Source: JBHIBR01 sp046759145 [NCBI: Nitrospinota bacterium]
GTDB lineage: Bacteria > UBA8248
Assembly: GCA_046759145.1 (NCBI GenBank)
Contig: JBHIBR010000062.1
Coordinates: 1 to 8,186 of the forward strand
Length of the DNA stretch: 8,186 nt
Direction: 5' to 3'
The translations under genes and the position numbers were made by a program. Below the pieces are notes generated by a model, which ran no database searches, was not told where the DNA came from, and saw nothing but the letters and a program-made list of their open reading frames with translations. Shown one piece after another: positions 2,150-8,186 of this stretch. Numbering within the stretch: position 1 is the stretch's first letter; each line of letters begins with the position of its first letter.

Positions 2150-2332
2150 GACATTCGCAAGCTCTACCCGGAACTCCGCGAAGATCGGGTCCGTTACCTC
2201 GAGGCGTGGGAGCTGGTCGGGCCTGTTGTGCGGACCAACGCAGCTCGGTTCTGCGATCTTCAGGCCCTGCTGATCTTCCTCAAAGCCCGCCAACAGCTCG
2301 CCCAAGAGCTCCCGCTTCAGGCTGTAGCCTGA
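2150..2332 (+). pseudogene. MerR-type DNA-binding domain fragment (broken gene)
   Basis: The plus-strand frame from 2150 to the TGA at 2330-2332 encodes 60 residues that read like a MerR-family winged-helix domain. The recognition part is LYPELREDRVRYLEAWELV, followed by a wing region (GPVVRTNAARF) and a helix ending QQLAQELPLQAV. It lacks a proper start: a TGA at 2144-2146 interrupts the frame just upstream (preceded by KTHSVV), and no ATG or GTG with a ribosome binding site follows it. It is also cut short, since MerR proteins go on to a dimerisation helix and an effector domain; past the terminal TGA the same frame gives VLRAG, which resembles the next conserved step. Both TGA codons are one C-to-T change from CGA (Arg). 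Its end overlaps the tail of the convergent GGDEF/EAL gene. I infer a decaying regulator gene. Family assignment is by eye. Confidence 0.5.
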
Positions 2333-4379
2333 GTCCTCCGGGCGGGCGCTTGGGCATCAAGAGGCGGAGGCCTCCCTTCTTTACCATGAATCCACGCCTA
2401 ACTTCCCTCCCCACCTTCTCTTTCCATTTTGCCAGGAACCATTGTGCGAACACCTCTGCTGGGGGCATTGGAGGAGCGAGGATATATCCCTGGGCGGAAT
2501 GGCAACCTTGAGCGGCTAAGAAGCTCAGTTGTTCATCCGTTTCTACGCCCTCGGCGATCGCCTCCAGCTTGAGGCTGGCAGCCAAAGCGATGATGGCGGT
2601 GGTGATAGCCGCATCATCACGGTCCGCCGGGATGCCCCGCACGAAGGACCGGTCGATTTTTAATTTGTCTATAGGGAAACGTTTCAAGAAGCTCATGGAC
2701 GAATATCCTATACCGAAATCATCGATTGAGAGCTTCACGCCCATCTCTTTCAGCGACTTCATCATCGCAATGGCATGATCCGCATCTCTCATGGCAGCGC
2801 TTTCGGTGACTTCGAGCACCAAGCAGTTCGGGCTCAAGCCGGTTTCTTCGAGAATCTGTGCAACGGTTTCCGCGAGTCTTTTTTCTCGTAACTGGCGTGC
2901 CGACAGGTTGACATTCACTCTTATGGGCGGAAACCCTTGTTCTTGCCACGCTTTATTTTGCCAGCATGCCGTGCGTAACACCCATTCTCCGATTGGCACA
3001 ATGAGGCCTGTATCTTCGGCCACCGGGATGAACTTCGACGGGGAGATCATGCCAGCTTCCGGGTCCTCCCAACGCAGCAACGCCTCGAATCCGATGATCT
3101 CACCCGTCGTGAGGTCTGCCTGGGGCTGGTAGTGCAAAACGAGCTTGCCTTTTTCCAGCGCCTTCCGCAGGCTGTTTTCCAGCCTTAAGCGTCTAAAGGT
3201 CAAAGCTTCCATGGCTCGATCGTAAAGCTTAAAGCCATTCCCGCCCTCTGCCTTGGCACGGTACATGGAGATATCAGCCCTTTTAACGAGGGCTTCAACG
3301 TCAGTCCCGTCGGACGGGTACAGGCTGATGCCAATGCTGGGAGTGAAGAAGAGTTCCTGGCCTTCCACCTTGAAAGGCATCGAAAACGCTTTGATGATGG
3401 TCTGAGCCACTCGCACGGCATCTTGCTCTTGAGTGATGTCGTCCAGAACGACGGTGAATTCATCCCCGGCCAGGCGGGCGACCATATCGCTCTCCCTTAG
3501 GCAGCCTTTCATCCTTTGCGCTACTGCTTGGAGCAAGAGGTCACCAGCTTCGTGGCCGAGCGTGTCGTTGACGCGTTTGAATTCGTCCAGATCCAGGAAC
3601 ATGATCGCCGCCCGCGTCCCATGGCGTTTGGCACGCGCCACCGTCTGGTGCAGGCGTTCGTAAAATAGTTGGCGGTTGGGTAAGCTGGTGAGTGAGTCAT
3701 AATAAGCCAAATTACTTAATTCTTTTTCATGTCGCTTTATGGTCTTCCGGCGGGCCCGGGCGACGAAGAGCAAGGTTCCGTAGAGCATGAAAAACCCTGT
3801 CCCGATTGATCCAACGAGCCTGTTCTTTAGATGATTTATCCGTTTTGCCGTGGGCCCGTAATACTGGTAGATCTCAAAGACGCCCCTCGTGCCATTAACG
3901 TCTGGGAAAATGATGGGGGTATACACTTGCACAAGACTGCCCAGGTCTCTTTTGCGACCGTTTTTCGCGTCTTGAGGAATCTTAATTTTTGCAGCGTTTT
4001 CCCCGCGGAGTGCTTTTAAAAGGTTTCCCTTAACGGGGAATTTCATGCCTACGCTCGCGGGGTCATCGGAGTAGATCACAGTGCCGTCTTTTGACCAGAG
4101 CTTCACCCGGGCGGTCCGCTCAGAAACTATAGATTTTTGTACAAACTCATGGAACCTGCGATACCCCTCCCCGCTCATAGGAACTTCAAGATCAGCGGGG
4201 GTGATGGCACTCACAAGACGCCCTCTCACAGTCTCCACTGCTTCATCAATCAAGGCATCAACGGCATCTGAGCGGATTTTGTTGGATAGAACTATGGCAA
4301 GGGCAAGTGCGATGGTAGCCAGCATTACGAAGCTGACTACTGAGAACTGAACCATTAGGTTTTCTTTTAAGCTCCTCAT
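2280..4379 (-). CDS. Membrane-bound GGDEF/EAL cyclic-di-GMP protein, 699 aa
   Basis: This protein makes and/or degrades the second messenger cyclic di-GMP at the inner membrane. Helices at about residues 9-32 and 187-208 bracket a 155-residue extracytoplasmic sensor region (Cache-like by position, not proven). The GGDEF domain spans about 222-387: DSLTSLPNR (228-236), FLDLDEFKRVNDTLGHEAGD (261-280), inhibitory site RESD (295-298), and the signature reads AGDEF (304-308). The EAL domain spans about 397-648 with FEALLRW (431-437), NVNLSARQL (489-497), LEVTES (522-527), DDFGIGYSS (553-561), KIDRSFV (574-580) and EGVET (610-614), so the phosphodiesterase residues I can check are intact. Residues 651-699 lie beyond the domain and look like read-through into flanking DNA. 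ATG at 4379 has only a weak ribosome binding site; Met9 is an alternative. GC is clearly lower than in the neighbours, suggesting transfer. Confidence 0.93.
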   Translation of the reverse strand: MRSLKENLMVQFSVVSFVMLATIALALAIVLSNKIRSDAVDALIDEAVETVRGRLVSAITPADLEVPMSGEGYRRFHEFVQKSIVSERTARVKLWSKDGTVIYSDDPASVGMKFPVKGNLLKALRGENAAKIKIPQDAKNGRKRDLGSLVQVYTPIIFPDVNGTRGVFEIYQYYGPTAKRINHLKNRLVGSIGTGFFMLYGTLLFVARARRKTIKRHEKELSNLAYYDSLTSLPNRQLFYERLHQTVARAKRHGTRAAIMFLDLDEFKRVNDTLGHEAGDLLLQAVAQRMKGCLRESDMVARLAGDEFTVVLDDITQEQDAVRVAQTIIKAFSMPFKVEGQELFFTPSIGISLYPSDGTDVEALVKRADISMYRAKAEGGNGFKLYDRAMEALTFRRLRLENSLRKALEKGKLVLHYQPQADLTTGEIIGFEALLRWEDPEAGMISPSKFIPVAEDTGLIVPIGEWVLRTACWQNKAWQEQGFPPIRVNVNLSARQLREKRLAETVAQILEETGLSPNCLVLEVTESAAMRDADHAIAMMKSLKEMGVKLSIDDFGIGYSSMSFLKRFPIDKLKIDRSFVRGIPADRDDAAITTAIIALAASLKLEAIAEGVETDEQLSFLAAQGCHSAQGYILAPPMPPAEVFAQWFLAKWKEKVGREVRRGFMVKKGGLRLLMPKRPPGGLRLQPEAGALGRAVGGL

Positions 4380-5065: not shown

Positions 5066-5968
5066 TCAGCCCGCCCGCCGCAGAGCCTCCCGGACGAGGG
5101 GGACGATCTCGCTGAACTCCTCGGTCACAAGGGCCCCTGCCTCCCGCAGGAGCGCCTTCTTCCTCGAGGGGGCGCCGAGCCCGCGCTCGATCAGGGCCCC
5201 CGTGTGAGCGAGGCTCAAGGGCATCCTCTGGTGCTCCATGAACTCGCCGGGGATGACGGCGACAAGAGGTTTCGTGAAGCCGCCGCGCATCACGAACTCG
5301 GCCGCCGCCTCCTCCCGGCCCGTTCCCGGCTCGCCGAACATGAGGACGACCTTCGTCTCGGGGTCCTGCTCGAAGAGGGCCATGAGGTCGGCGAAGGATG
5401 TCCCGATGATGAGGTCGCCCCCGATGGCGATGTAGGTGCTCTGGCCGATGCCCGCCTTGGTGAGGAACATGGCGATCTCAGCCCCCATGCCCCCGCTGCG
5501 GGAGATGATCCCCACCGGCCCCGGTCGGAACATGAGGTCGGGCACCTCCCCCCCCGTCCCCCCGAGCTTTGCCTTCCCGGGACTGATCATCCCCTGGGAG
5601 TTGGGGCCGATGACCCGCACCCCGCGCTTCGCCGCCCGGGTCACCACCTCGCAGGCGTCGTGGTGGGGGACGCCCTCGGCCAGGATGTGGGCCACCGGCA
5701 CACCCGCCTCGATGGCCTCCAGGGCCGCCTCCCGGACGAAGCGGGCGGGGATGAACAGCACCGCCAGGTCGGCCGGGTGCTCCCGGAGGGCCGCCCGCAC
5801 GGTGTTGTAGACGGGTAGCCCCTCCACCACCTGACCCCCCTTGCCCGGCGAGACGCCCGCCACCAGGTTCGTCCCGTAGGCGCGCATGAGGGGGATGTGT
5901 CGGCGGGCCTCCGCCCCCGTGGCCCCCTGGACGAGGACGCGGGTGCTCCGGTCGAGGAGGATGCTCAT
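5066..5968 (-). CDS. CoA-ligase alpha subunit, SucD family (succinyl-CoA or citryl-CoA synthetase type), 300 aa
   Basis: This is the CoA-binding, phosphohistidine-carrying subunit of an ATP-dependent acyl-CoA ligase that should pair with the ATP-grasp subunit encoded just upstream. The N-terminal Rossmann CoA-binding domain shows VLVQGATGAEARRH (11-24) and GVSPGKGGQVVEGLPVYNTV (38-57). The ligase domain has VIGPNSQGMISPGKAKLG (119-136), VGIISRSGGMGAEI (152-165), IAIGGD (180-185) and FGEPGTGREE (211-220), whose Glu213 matches the glutamate that supports the phosphohistidine. H255 in AHTGAL aligns with the phosphorylated His of the GHAGA motif, with Ala in place of the first Gly. Length is that of a normal SucD, so there is no citrate-synthase domain as in ATP-citrate lyase. 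SRSGGM is the lyase-like form where E. coli SucD has SRSGTL. The ATG overlaps the upstream stop by ATGA. Superfamily is certain; substrate is not. Confidence 0.9.
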   Translation of the reverse strand: MSILLDRSTRVLVQGATGAEARRHIPLMRAYGTNLVAGVSPGKGGQVVEGLPVYNTVRAALREHPADLAVLFIPARFVREAALEAIEAGVPVAHILAEGVPHHDACEVVTRAAKRGVRVIGPNSQGMISPGKAKLGGTGGEVPDLMFRPGPVGIISRSGGMGAEIAMFLTKAGIGQSTYIAIGGDLIIGTSFADLMALFEQDPETKVVLMFGEPGTGREEAAAEFVMRGGFTKPLVAVIPGEFMEHQRMPLSLAHTGALIERGLGAPSRKKALLREAGALVTEEFSEIVPLVREALRRAG

Positions 5969-7197
5969 GAGTCCCTGCCCGGGAGCCCGCCGTAGGCCCG
6001 CTCGACGATGCGCCTCACCGCGTCCTCGAGGGAGAAGTCGTCCTCGTGCCACTCCACGCCGGGGACCCCCTTGACCAGCTCGCGGGCCACCGCGGCTCCC
6101 GGGCCCGTGTAGCGGAGGACGACGGGGAATTCCGCGTAGTCGAGGCCCGCCTCCTTGAGGGCGCGGACGATGCCCGCCACCCGGACGTCCACCCGGGCGA
6201 AGTTGCTCACGTTGCCCGCAAGGAGCAGCCCCTTGAGGCCAGGCTTGCGGAGCACGGCCAGGGCGGCCCGGTACACCTTCTCCTCGTAGCGGCCATAGTG
6301 GCCCCACGTGATGTCGAAGGTTGTGGCGGGCCGGCCGCCGAATTTGTAGAGGAGGCCGAGGCTCAGGAGGCCGCTCCCGCCCCCGCTGACCATGAAACCG
6401 ATGTCGCCCTCCAGCTCGCTGAAGCGGATGGCGCCCACGTGGGGGTCGAGGGCGTCGATCTCCCGCATCTGCCGTTCCAGGGGGGTGAGGGGACGGAAGC
6501 CATTCCCCTCCTCCTCGCCCGCCAGGGGCGCGAGCTCCCGGTGGCGGAAGAGGGCCTGCTCGTCCAGGTTCACCACGGCGGAGCCCGCCACCAGCCGGCC
6601 GCGGGCGTCCCGCACCAGGGGGTTCACCTCCGCCAGGCGGGCGTCGCAGGCGCGGAACAGGCGGTAGAGGCCCGCCGCGAATCGCGCCGCCCCGAGCGCC
6701 TCTTGCCCCCCCAGGCCCGCCCGCTCGCAGAGGTCGAGGGCGCCGAAAACCTCCAGGCCCTCGGTGATGTCCACGGGGAGCGAGAGGAGCCTCTCTGGCC
6801 GCTCGGCGACGAGCTCTTCGACCTCCACGCCCCCCTCGGCGCTGAAGAGCACCACCGGGCTGTTGGCCATGCTGTCGAAGGTGACGGAGAGGAAATACTC
6901 CTGCTGGACCTCCAGCGCTTCGCTCACGAGGAGCCGCCGGACCGGGAAGTTGTGGACCACCATCCCCAGTATCTCCCGGGCGGCTCCCTCCGCCTCCCCG
7001 GGGCTCTGGACCAATCGCACCGCCCCGGCCTTCCCCCGCCGGCCCACCGGCACGAGCGCCTTCAGCACGGCCTTCCCCCCCAGGGACTCCGCCTGGCGGG
7101 CCGCCGCAGCGGGGTCCCCGGCCACGGTGTAGTCGGGGACGAGGAGGCCAAATCTTTTGAGGAGACCCAGCGAATGGTGCTCGAGCAGGCGCGCCAT
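5965..7197 (-). CDS. CoA-ligase beta subunit, ATP-grasp, SucC/ATP-citrate-lyase-like, 410 aa
   Basis: Nucleotide-binding subunit that would phosphorylate the partner's histidine and bind the carboxylic acid. The ATP-grasp fold is recognisable from EHHSLGLLKRFGL (6-18), the lysine/arginine loop VGRRGKAG (51-58), EGGVEVEEL (121-129) and AEVNPL (189-194), with N192 as a Mg ligand. Differences from SucC: the position of the second Mg ligand (Asp213 in E. coli) is Ser206; the substrate loop that is GGGATKERV in SucC reads ITWGHYGRYEEKV (296-308); and the NIFGGIVRCD loop is replaced by GNVSNFARVDVRVAGIVRAL (328-347), which closely resembles IANFTNVAATFKGIVRAI of ATP-citrate lyase. These features suggest a citryl-CoA-synthetase-like or otherwise non-standard member. 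ATG at 7197 is the first plausible start, aligned with family N-termini, though its ribosome binding site is poor. A good promoter lies 64 bases upstream. The pairing with the alpha gene and the divergent Kor gene supports a central-carbon role. Confidence 0.88.
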   Translation of the reverse strand: MARLLEHHSLGLLKRFGLLVPDYTVAGDPAAAARQAESLGGKAVLKALVPVGRRGKAGAVRLVQSPGEAEGAAREILGMVVHNFPVRRLLVSEALEVQQEYFLSVTFDSMANSPVVLFSAEGGVEVEELVAERPERLLSLPVDITEGLEVFGALDLCERAGLGGQEALGAARFAAGLYRLFRACDARLAEVNPLVRDARGRLVAGSAVVNLDEQALFRHRELAPLAGEEEGNGFRPLTPLERQMREIDALDPHVGAIRFSELEGDIGFMVSGGGSGLLSLGLLYKFGGRPATTFDITWGHYGRYEEKVYRAALAVLRKPGLKGLLLAGNVSNFARVDVRVAGIVRALKEAGLDYAEFPVVLRYTGPGAAVARELVKGVPGVEWHEDDFSLEDAVRRIVERAYGGLPGRDS

Positions 7198-7577: not shown

Positions 7578-7605
7578 GTTGAGGCGTGAGCTCAACCAAG
7601 GGGGA
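7578..7605 (+). promoter_or_regulatory. Hairpin and ribosome binding site ahead of the oxidoreductase start
   Basis: GTTGAG (7578-7583) pairs perfectly with CTCAAC (7591-7596) over a seven-base loop. It ends three bases before an AAGGGGGA ribosome-binding stretch (7598-7605), about ten bases from the ATG at 7616. The hairpin could tune translation, but this is inference. Confidence 0.4.
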
Positions 7606-7615
7606 CCGCAGCAAG

Positions 7616-8186
7616 ATGGCCACTGAGATTACCGTAGGAATCGCAGGCGCCGCCGGCGACGGATTGGACAAGACCGGCGACACCCTCGCCCGCACCGCCG
7701 CCCGCCTGGGACTTCACGTTTTCGCTTACAACAGCTACCAGTCGCTGATCAGAGGGGGGCACACCTGGCTCCGCATCCGGATGGCGGAGGAGAAGGTGGC
7801 CTGCCATGGCGATCGCTTGAGCGTGCTGATCGCCCTCAACGAAGACAGCATCGAGCGGCACGCCCGCCAGGTGGAGCCGGGGGGAGCCATCCTTTACAAC
7901 AGCTCCCGGCTGGCCTGCGACTCCTCCCTGGTGCCCGAGGGGGTGCAGGTGGCCGCCTTGCCCCTGCGAGAGATCACCAAGGACCTGGGCAAGCTGCTGC
8001 CCGTGATGCAGAACACGGTGGCCCTGGGTGCGCCGCTCCACCTGATCGGCTTCGACATCGAGGTCACGGCCGGGCTGGTGGCCGGGACCTTCAAGCATAA
8101 AGGCGCCGAGGTCATCGAGCAGAACGTCAAGGTACTCCGGGCCGGTTACGACTACGCGGTGAAGGAGCTGAAACCCCTCGGCTACC
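7616..8186 (+). CDS. 2-oxoacid:ferredoxin oxidoreductase, gamma domain (KorA-type), 3' end outside window
   Basis: The enzyme catalyses the reversible, CoA- and ferredoxin-linked oxidation of a 2-oxoacid to an acyl-CoA and CO2, most likely 2-oxoglutarate to succinyl-CoA. The visible 190 residues start at ATG 7616. They contain the gamma-domain signatures VGIAGAAGDGLDKTGDTLAR (7-26), NSYQSLIRGGHTWLRIR (39-55) and LIALNEDSIERH (71-82), followed by QNTVALGAPLHLIGF (132-146) and a C-terminal helix. The gamma domain is normally about 190 residues, and the frame is still open at the window edge. The gene is therefore probably the fused gamma-alpha form common in Kor enzymes, with the thiamine-diphosphate beta subunit expected downstream. 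It is divergent from the CoA-ligase pair and shares the control region with it. An indolepyruvate or pyruvate specificity is possible; the GAAGDGLDKTG form and the neighbouring ligase favour 2-oxoglutarate. Confidence 0.88.
   Translation, partial: MATEITVGIAGAAGDGLDKTGDTLARTAARLGLHVFAYNSYQSLIRGGHTWLRIRMAEEKVACHGDRLSVLIALNEDSIERHARQVEPGGAILYNSSRLACDSSLVPEGVQVAALPLREITKDLGKLLPVMQNTVALGAPLHLIGFDIEVTAGLVAGTFKHKGAEVIEQNVKVLRAGYDYAVKELKPLGY

Follow-up and report, generated by a model that had tools for sequence, protein, structure and literature searches.

The stretch of DNA considered here, referred to as the window, comprises 8,186 nucleotides of contig JBHIBR010000062.1 from a Nitrospinota bacterium (JBHIBR01 sp046759145). 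Its reverse strand carries two adjacent genes for the beta and alpha subunits of a putative acyl-CoA ligase (Table 1), the start of alpha overlapping the stop of beta by 4 bases. The pair falls within the succinyl-CoA synthetase (SCS) superfamily, as beta contains the ATP-grasp domain and alpha the CoA-binding and ligase domains together with the active-site histidine. An earlier, sequence-only reading of this DNA had noted subunits of 410 and 300 residues without an attached citrate-synthase domain, and both points are borne out by the gene calls and by a domain search of the window proteins, which detected that domain in neither subunit. At the protein level the pair is conserved in the nearest genome relative found, a Candidatus Tectomicrobia metagenome-assembled genome (locus L001; beta 66%, alpha 75%). 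This genome (G001) also has a korA 83% identical to the fragment at the window end, which makes a Tectomicrobia origin of the window probable. Both subunits fall short of the NCBIfam cut-offs for the canonical enzyme, beta scoring 215.6 bits against SucC (cut-off 370) and alpha 278.8 bits against SucD (cut-off 336); beta is likewise far under the cut-off for MtkA (160.3 bits versus 604). The best sequence match in the PDB is SucD 2yv2 for alpha (257.5 bits) and Thermus SucC 3ufx_B for beta (198.6 bits), with CcsA, the citryl-CoA synthetase subunit, in third place for beta (133.8 bits).

Table 1. The ligase gene pair, its pocket and catalytic motifs, and the divergent neighbor (window positions; A2 is the alignment of alpha subunits)
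Feature	Positions	Strand	Remark
Beta subunit (SucC/CcsA/AclA superfamily), 410 aa	5965-7197	(-)	ATP-grasp_2, 152.6 bits
Alpha subunit (SucD superfamily), 300 aa	5066-5968	(-)	CoA_binding and Ligase_CoA domains
GGG (beta 272-274), in place of SucC NGAG, as in CcsA and AclA	6376-6384	(-)	27 of 28 clade rows; SGG in L119
Clade-specific FDIT...YEEK (beta 294-307), in place of SucC LDVGGGAS.E and CcsA TDIGGNPPAE	6277-6318	(-)	Family alignment
Substrate loop AGNVSNFARVD (beta 327-337)	6187-6219	(-)	Length as in CcsA and AclA; SucC one residue shorter
R362..GPG (beta 362-367), resembling RRNGP/RRGGP of CcsA/AclA	6097-6114	(-)	Family alignment
SRSGGM (alpha 156-161), in place of SucD S[RK]SGTL	5486-5503	(-)	Family alignment
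Alpha His255, phosphohistidine position	5204-5206	(-)	Invariant in A2; aligned with the His of SucD GHAGA
Alpha Glu213	5330-5332	(-)	Invariant in A2
KorA-type 2-oxoacid:acceptor oxidoreductase alpha chain, N-terminal (gamma-type) part	7586-8185	(+)	Divergent neighbor outside the unit; cut by the window end

The motifs of the pair were compared residue by residue in an alignment of the family that includes 11 SucC-type rows and 28 rows of the window's own clade, alongside alignments A1 (nine betas, the window's included) and A2 (alphas). Motifs invariant across nine canonical SucC proteins are lost in the window beta, and four segments in its C-terminal half depart from SucC; we take these four to line the citrate site of ATP-citrate lyase. 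One of them, FDIT, is present in all 28 clade rows and in none of the 33 other rows, and is followed in the window beta by an insertion of 3 residues that the eight remaining A1 rows lack. The substrate loop corresponds to N[IV]FGGI.R in the 11 SucC-type rows; in L100-L106, seven close relatives, it has SNFT, much like the ANFT of AclA. The sequence-only reading had called this loop lyase-like, which holds in the alignment for its length and for SNF, the only lyase-like residues within it; the R.D that follows is common to CcsA, SucC and a set of plasmid-borne, sulfonate-type rows, and the plasmid rows contain FAR.D as a whole. Further along, R.TGPG occupies the place of SucC R..GT, and GPG recurs in 22 of the 28 clade rows, the six with GAG being a second Tectomicrobia paralogue. 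The alpha SRSGGM singled out by the same reading does stand where canonical SucD has S[RK]SGTL.

Profile searches divide the proteins along the same line. Pfam Citrate_bind (PF16114) matches eight of the nine A1 betas and none of nine canonical SucC (E ≤ 0.01), the window beta with E 3.2e-4 and 20.7 bits, under the 26.8 cut-off, and the best A1 member with 9.8e-13. Conversely, Ligase_CoA (PF00549) matches none of the nine A1 betas and all nine canonical SucC. The predicted beta fold (mean pLDDT, the model's own confidence score, 83.3; 9-row alignment) aligns with SCS rows at Z 26-29, with CcsA at 26.6 and with AclA at 22.3. Judged from its residues, the pair belongs to the SCS-superfamily ligases and has a pocket of the citrate type. 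The role of the alpha histidine in the phosphohistidine step of SCS is long established, and Glu213 aligns with the SCS glutamate that faces the phosphohistidine; because both aligned residues of this step are retained, the pair should be catalytically active.

The phylogenetic position of the pair was read from a beta tree of 61 rows and a two-subunit tree of 51 rows. L118, with a truncated beta, was dropped; the two-subunit tree omits the rows lacking a full alpha (L120, L121, L122, L022, L046, L097) as well as the PDB rows CcsA, AclA and two SucC, and hence has no Ccs row. The window groups with 14 Tectomicrobia rows (support 100/99 in the beta tree, 100/100 in the two-subunit tree). These are joined next by rows from Proteobacteria, Myxococcota and NC10 (100/97 and 100/98, respectively) and then by the second Tectomicrobia paralogue (97/89 and 99/97). 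A separate clade, supported at 100/99 in both trees, holds the SucC, MtkA and sulfonate-type rows, with MtkA and L097 nested inside SucC. A tree joining the window clade to the SucC and MtkA rows is rejected by the approximately unbiased (AU) test at a p-AU of 1.5e-5; much lower values came from badly posed tests in which the window row alone was forced into SucC, or MtkA and L097 were omitted. The pair is therefore placed outside the canonical SucC/SucD clade, in line with the sequence-only reading. The sisterhood with CcsA is absent from the beta tree, yet on beta alone the AU test rejects neither this union (p-AU 0.114) nor that with AclA (0.084).

The position of the plasmid rows bears on one conceivable identity, that of a SauCD/SqwKL/HpfYZ-like sulfonate-CoA ligase acting on sulfoacetate or 3-sulfopropionate. 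Such SCS-like ligases have been published (PMC12890257, in excerpt), and among the best plasmid matches (36% and 33%) are pairs beside an aldehyde dehydrogenase, the Rhodococcus one with xsc and a gene for a sulfite exporter in its vicinity; the shared FAR.D of the loop points the same way. Yet the tree places these plasmid relatives with SucC (100/99), they retain NGAG, and sulfonate-type neighbors were not noticed in the related loci read, which makes this identity highly improbable.

The relatives' genomes were searched with a profile built from nine betas. Of the 18 genomes in the phylum of genome G001, 15 have a beta relative (E ≤ 1e-80; the one in G116 is cut by a contig end). The NC10 phylum yields 2 of 95 genomes (>500 bits), the sample from a single proteobacterial class 3 of 385 (>600 bits; a fourth scores 341 bits) and the Bipolaricaulota phylum 3 of 100 (>500 bits). 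A canonical SucC above cut-off coexists with the relative in seven of the eight genomes of the first relatives' loci and in 14 of the 15 pair-carrying Tectomicrobia genomes, the exception being G111, where none was found; in the three Bipolaricaulota genomes the relative itself is the sole SucC-type match. For the first two sets this is the reverse of a pair standing as the only sucCD of its genome, the outcome that would have spoken against the sequence-only reading. Because both subunits lie under the NCBIfam cut-offs, union with SucC and MtkA is rejected and a canonical sucC accompanies the pair in 14 of the 15 Tectomicrobia genomes, a housekeeping SucCD is unlikely.

A variant of that idea retains succinate as the substrate of a divergent isoenzyme, perhaps working with the adjacent 2-oxoacid:ferredoxin oxidoreductase. 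The top PDB matches of both subunits and the adjoining korA of the window favor it, while the coexisting canonical sucC of the 14 related genomes and the loss of motifs invariant in nine canonical SucC oppose it. The korA adjacency is moreover not conserved: the window fragment is 83% identical to korA of G001, in which korA and the pair are on separate contigs and a different gene lies upstream of korA, and korA beside the pair was not seen in the relatives' loci read. A succinate isoenzyme is thus a minority prospect, to which we would give little credence. A housekeeping sucCD with korA as partner was considered separately and set aside, given the unconserved adjacency and the canonical sucC of the relatives. 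Downstream of the pair, on the reverse strand, the window also encodes a GGDEF-EAL protein of 699 residues (2280-4379), an ArsP_1-type permease stretch (986-2305) and a cytochrome b561-type protein (3-944).

The reading that fits best, with a probability of roughly 0.6, is that of a second acyl-CoA ligase from the SCS superfamily, ADP-forming and catabolic; its acid is probably a polar di- or tricarboxylate other than succinate, perhaps hydroxylated or branched (C4-C6). A catabolic ligase for a polar carboxylate is preferred because some relatives adjoin genes for MaoC-type dehydratases, acyl-CoA dehydrogenases or transporters. In five loci (L003-L007) a fused FAS1/MaoC-type dehydratase of 366-371 residues is encoded close to the pair and in the same direction, assigned by Pfam in four and by clustering in L004; in L003 TctA and TctC transporter genes adjoin the cluster on the opposite strand. 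The run at L119 comprises hydantoinase B, a flavin mononucleotide-dependent dehydrogenase, beta, alpha and two acyl-CoA dehydrogenases, the first 12 bases past alpha and the second 15 bases further. In the second Tectomicrobia paralogue (L112-L117, six genomes, alpha present in all six) a putative cyclase, beta, alpha and a thiamine-diphosphate enzyme share one strand; the last has several family matches, all under cut-off, and names no substrate. Upstream of the pair, L001 and L099 have a member of the peptidase M19 cluster. Together, these neighborhoods suggest catabolism via CoA esters, and none names the acid.

Three further observations concern the same loci. The MaoC neighbor was considered as a mesaconyl-CoA hydratase, since the Haloarcula enzyme has 358 residues (PMC5592240, in excerpt) and the sizes fit, and was rejected on a weak PDB match of the one protein compared and the lack of any NCBIfam model naming it. 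At L006, two tandem genes of one cluster (L006:14235-16260; 336 and 334 residues) appear L-asparaginase-like by eye. A further SCS-like branch from the NC10 phylum (L120-L125) has TrpB-like, PrpD-like or 3-hydroxyisobutyrate-dehydrogenase-like genes between or beside its subunits.

In the catabolic ligase proposed here, the beta ATP-grasp domain would hand the phosphate of ATP to alpha His255, and the phosphohistidine would then phosphorylate a carboxylate of the acid held at the alpha-beta interface; CoA on the alpha Rossmann domain would attack the acyl phosphate to give the acyl-CoA. The acid would have been imported beforehand, and its CoA ester would be degraded by hydratases, dehydrogenases or lyases. 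We infer this mechanism from the conserved residues and established SCS chemistry, and the direction of the reaction and the class of substrate likewise.

The pocket looks more like that of citrate-handling enzymes, and the sequence-only reading had offered a citryl-CoA synthetase or a new acyl-CoA ligase. The second half of that alternative is supported by the position outside the canonical clade and by the separate canonical sucC in nearly all genomes with a relative; the first is disfavored. A CcsAB-type enzyme would prime citrate for a citryl-CoA lyase or a CitE-type lyase, and the two-subunit layout, the loop length, the GGG and GP motifs, the SNFT of seven close relatives beside the ANFT of AclA, the third rank of CcsA among PDB matches and the two beta unions that the AU test does not reject all agree with it. 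So do the CitE-type (PF03328) lyases of 14 of the 15 pair-carrying Tectomicrobia genomes, which could, in principle, also cleave citryl-CoA, and the short citrate-synthase-like open reading frames (278-335 residues) in G002, G003 and G088, all genomes with pair relatives. Those at G002:C454, G003:C378 and G088:C426 and C262 could be citryl-CoA lyases. Against these, a search for the stand-alone citryl-CoA lyase that the sequence-only reading had in view found no short citryl-CoA-lyase-like gene in the 15 Tectomicrobia genomes, of unstated completeness (E ≤ 1e-10). A full-length citrate synthase is present in 13 of them; G116 has a split one in addition, G118 a fragment only, and in G111 nothing was found (E ≤ 1e-10). 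The beta tree does not join the clade to CcsA, and the CcsA segment TDIGGNPPAE is replaced. A citryl-CoA synthetase is accordingly very improbable. On a branch distinct from the window's, an NC10-phylum locus (L134, counterpart at G007:C72) encodes an alpha fused to a citrate-synthase domain. A 507-residue SucC/AclA-like beta is found in two genomes of that phylum (L134:8881-10401 on the forward strand and L132:6701-8221 on the reverse), the L134 protein terminating in a cysteine-rich CIECLACELAC that by eye resembles a 4Fe-4S tail.

A further hint comes from Bipolaricaulota, whose rows are sister to the window clade in the two-subunit tree (97/94). At L127 a CitE-type lyase gene precedes beta and alpha, which are followed by glutamate mutase S, a gene that by eye is GlmL-like, glutamate mutase E and methylaspartate ammonia-lyase; both mutase subunits and the ammonia-lyase exceed their NCBIfam cut-offs. 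At L008 the pair stands together with the CitE gene and the two genes that follow, and the ammonia-lyase is on a different contig; at L128, alpha is followed by S, L and E-like genes (clustering and by eye), the contig ending just before beta. Glutamate-mutase genes thus adjoin the pair in all three genomes and a CitE-type lyase in two. The best PDB match of this lyase is 5vxc, a citrate lyase subunit beta-like protein (142.3 bits), which we take to be human citramalyl-CoA lyase. A class I fumarase-type gene, from the family that includes the known mesaconases (PMC4682846, in excerpt), is present in each of the three genomes, and citrate synthase was not detected in them, their completeness being unstated. 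Published routes include citramalate lyase, or a CoA-transferase with citramalyl-CoA lyase (PMC4682846, in excerpt); the haloarchaeal route uses a mesaconate CoA-transferase and hydratase (PMC5592240, in excerpt), and for mesaconate in Arcobacter an acetyl-CoA synthetase, not an SCS-like pair, was proposed (PMC2147049, in excerpt). The excerpts returned by a literature search by enzyme name describe no SCS-like citramalyl-CoA synthetase. An ADP-forming citramalyl-CoA synthetase would fit the gap left by these routes, and the Bipolaricaulota pair is probably such an enzyme.

It is tempting to extend this to the whole group, with the window clade and its sister as ADP-forming ligases acting on dicarboxylates of the C5 type, either hydroxylated or unsaturated. 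The Bipolaricaulota pair would then allow glutamate fermentation along the methylaspartate route with a citramalyl-CoA lyase that stands alone, in place of citramalate lyase or a CoA-transferase, and the window pair would make a related CoA ester; this extension is tentative, a possibility on the weaker side of even odds. The narrower idea that the window organism itself makes citramalyl-CoA (or malyl-CoA) for a CitE-type lyase is quite unlikely. The methylaspartate-pathway genes beside the sister clade speak for it, as do the PF03328 lyases in 14 of 15 Tectomicrobia genomes, those compared sharing 34-41% identity with the CitE of Bipolaricaulota. Methylaspartate ammonia-lyase, however, is present in none of the 15 pair-carrying Tectomicrobia genomes, no CitE gene occurs in the clustered Tectomicrobia neighborhoods, and the loop differs (NITNNTQID in Bipolaricaulota, NVSNFARVD in the window).

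Several findings sit uneasily with a catabolic ligase for another acid and with its extension to Bipolaricaulota. By sequence, SucC and SucD are still the top PDB matches, and the beta fold model fails to tell SCS from CcsA (whole-chain root-mean-square deviation 14-18). The window neighbors give no hint of the substrate, and those of the relatives vary between subclades, pointing to no single shared substrate. Most Tectomicrobia of the first, window-type group have a two-gene unit whose nearest recognizable neighbors are on the opposite strand; these are TRAP-type transporter genes (by eye; one receptor is NMT1_3) and SDR-family or small MaoC genes. For the L006 MaoC protein, the only one set against the PDB, the best match scores 26.1 bits and there is no close solved relative. 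As to Bipolaricaulota, the beta tree places its rows across a supported branch (96/86), the forced union not being rejected (p-AU 0.141), and neither a CitE-type lyase nor methylaspartate ammonia-lyase was detected in G574, the L128 genome, whose contig ends before beta.

SCS-like pairs that are only distantly related easily receive a sucC annotation, as several of the plasmid records have, and the window clade could pass for a duplicate enzyme of the tricarboxylic acid (TCA) cycle. If another acid is activated, metagenomic calls of the TCA or reverse TCA cycle that count sucCD-like or citryl-CoA synthetase-like genes would be affected, and the family would gain one more substrate beside succinate, citrate, malate and sulfonates. 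The Bipolaricaulota cluster would be a concrete case of ATP-linked citramalate activation in glutamate fermentation.

Among the known systems, SucC/SucD share with the pair the fold, the ATP-grasp domain, the phosphohistidine machinery and the subunit sizes; SucC differs in beta identity (29-36% for the rows compared), in the pocket motifs, in the NCBIfam scores that stay below cut-off and in its separate clade. CcsA/CcsB of Hydrogenobacter (PDB 6hxq) likewise consist of two separate subunits of similar size with the same loop length and the GGG and GP motifs, and the whole-fold Z of 26.6 is tied with several SCS rows. In contrast, beta is only 31% identical to CcsA, carries the FDIT segment and is not grouped with it in the beta tree, though the AU test does not reject that grouping, and the 15 Tectomicrobia genomes yielded no short citryl-CoA-lyase-like gene. 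With AclA/AclB the pair shares NF in the loop, GGG and the Citrate_bind match, whereas the window alpha is without the citrate-synthase domain and beta identity is 28%. MtkA/MtkB are an SCS-like pair used for malate, activating a hydroxy-dicarboxylate ahead of a lyase, and at L138 an annotated malate--CoA ligase indeed adjoins a CoA ester lyase; the MtkA row nonetheless lies inside the SucC clade, and the window beta far under the MtkA cut-off. Two plasmid loci, L136 of Indioceanicola and L137 of Rhodococcus, have an annotated succinate--CoA ligase beta with a CoA-binding partner, an adjoining aldehyde dehydrogenase and transporter or xsc genes nearby, and look sulfoacetate-CoA-ligase-like; as putative sulfonate-CoA ligases, assigned by context alone, they differ from the window pair in standing on the SucC side of the tree. 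SCS-like pairs have been put to use for citrate (PMC9560492, in excerpt) and for sulfoacetate and 3-sulfopropionate (PMC12890257, in excerpt), and it is with SauCD, SqwKL and HpfYZ, as ADP-forming ligases serving another acid, that the proposed role of the window pair may be compared.

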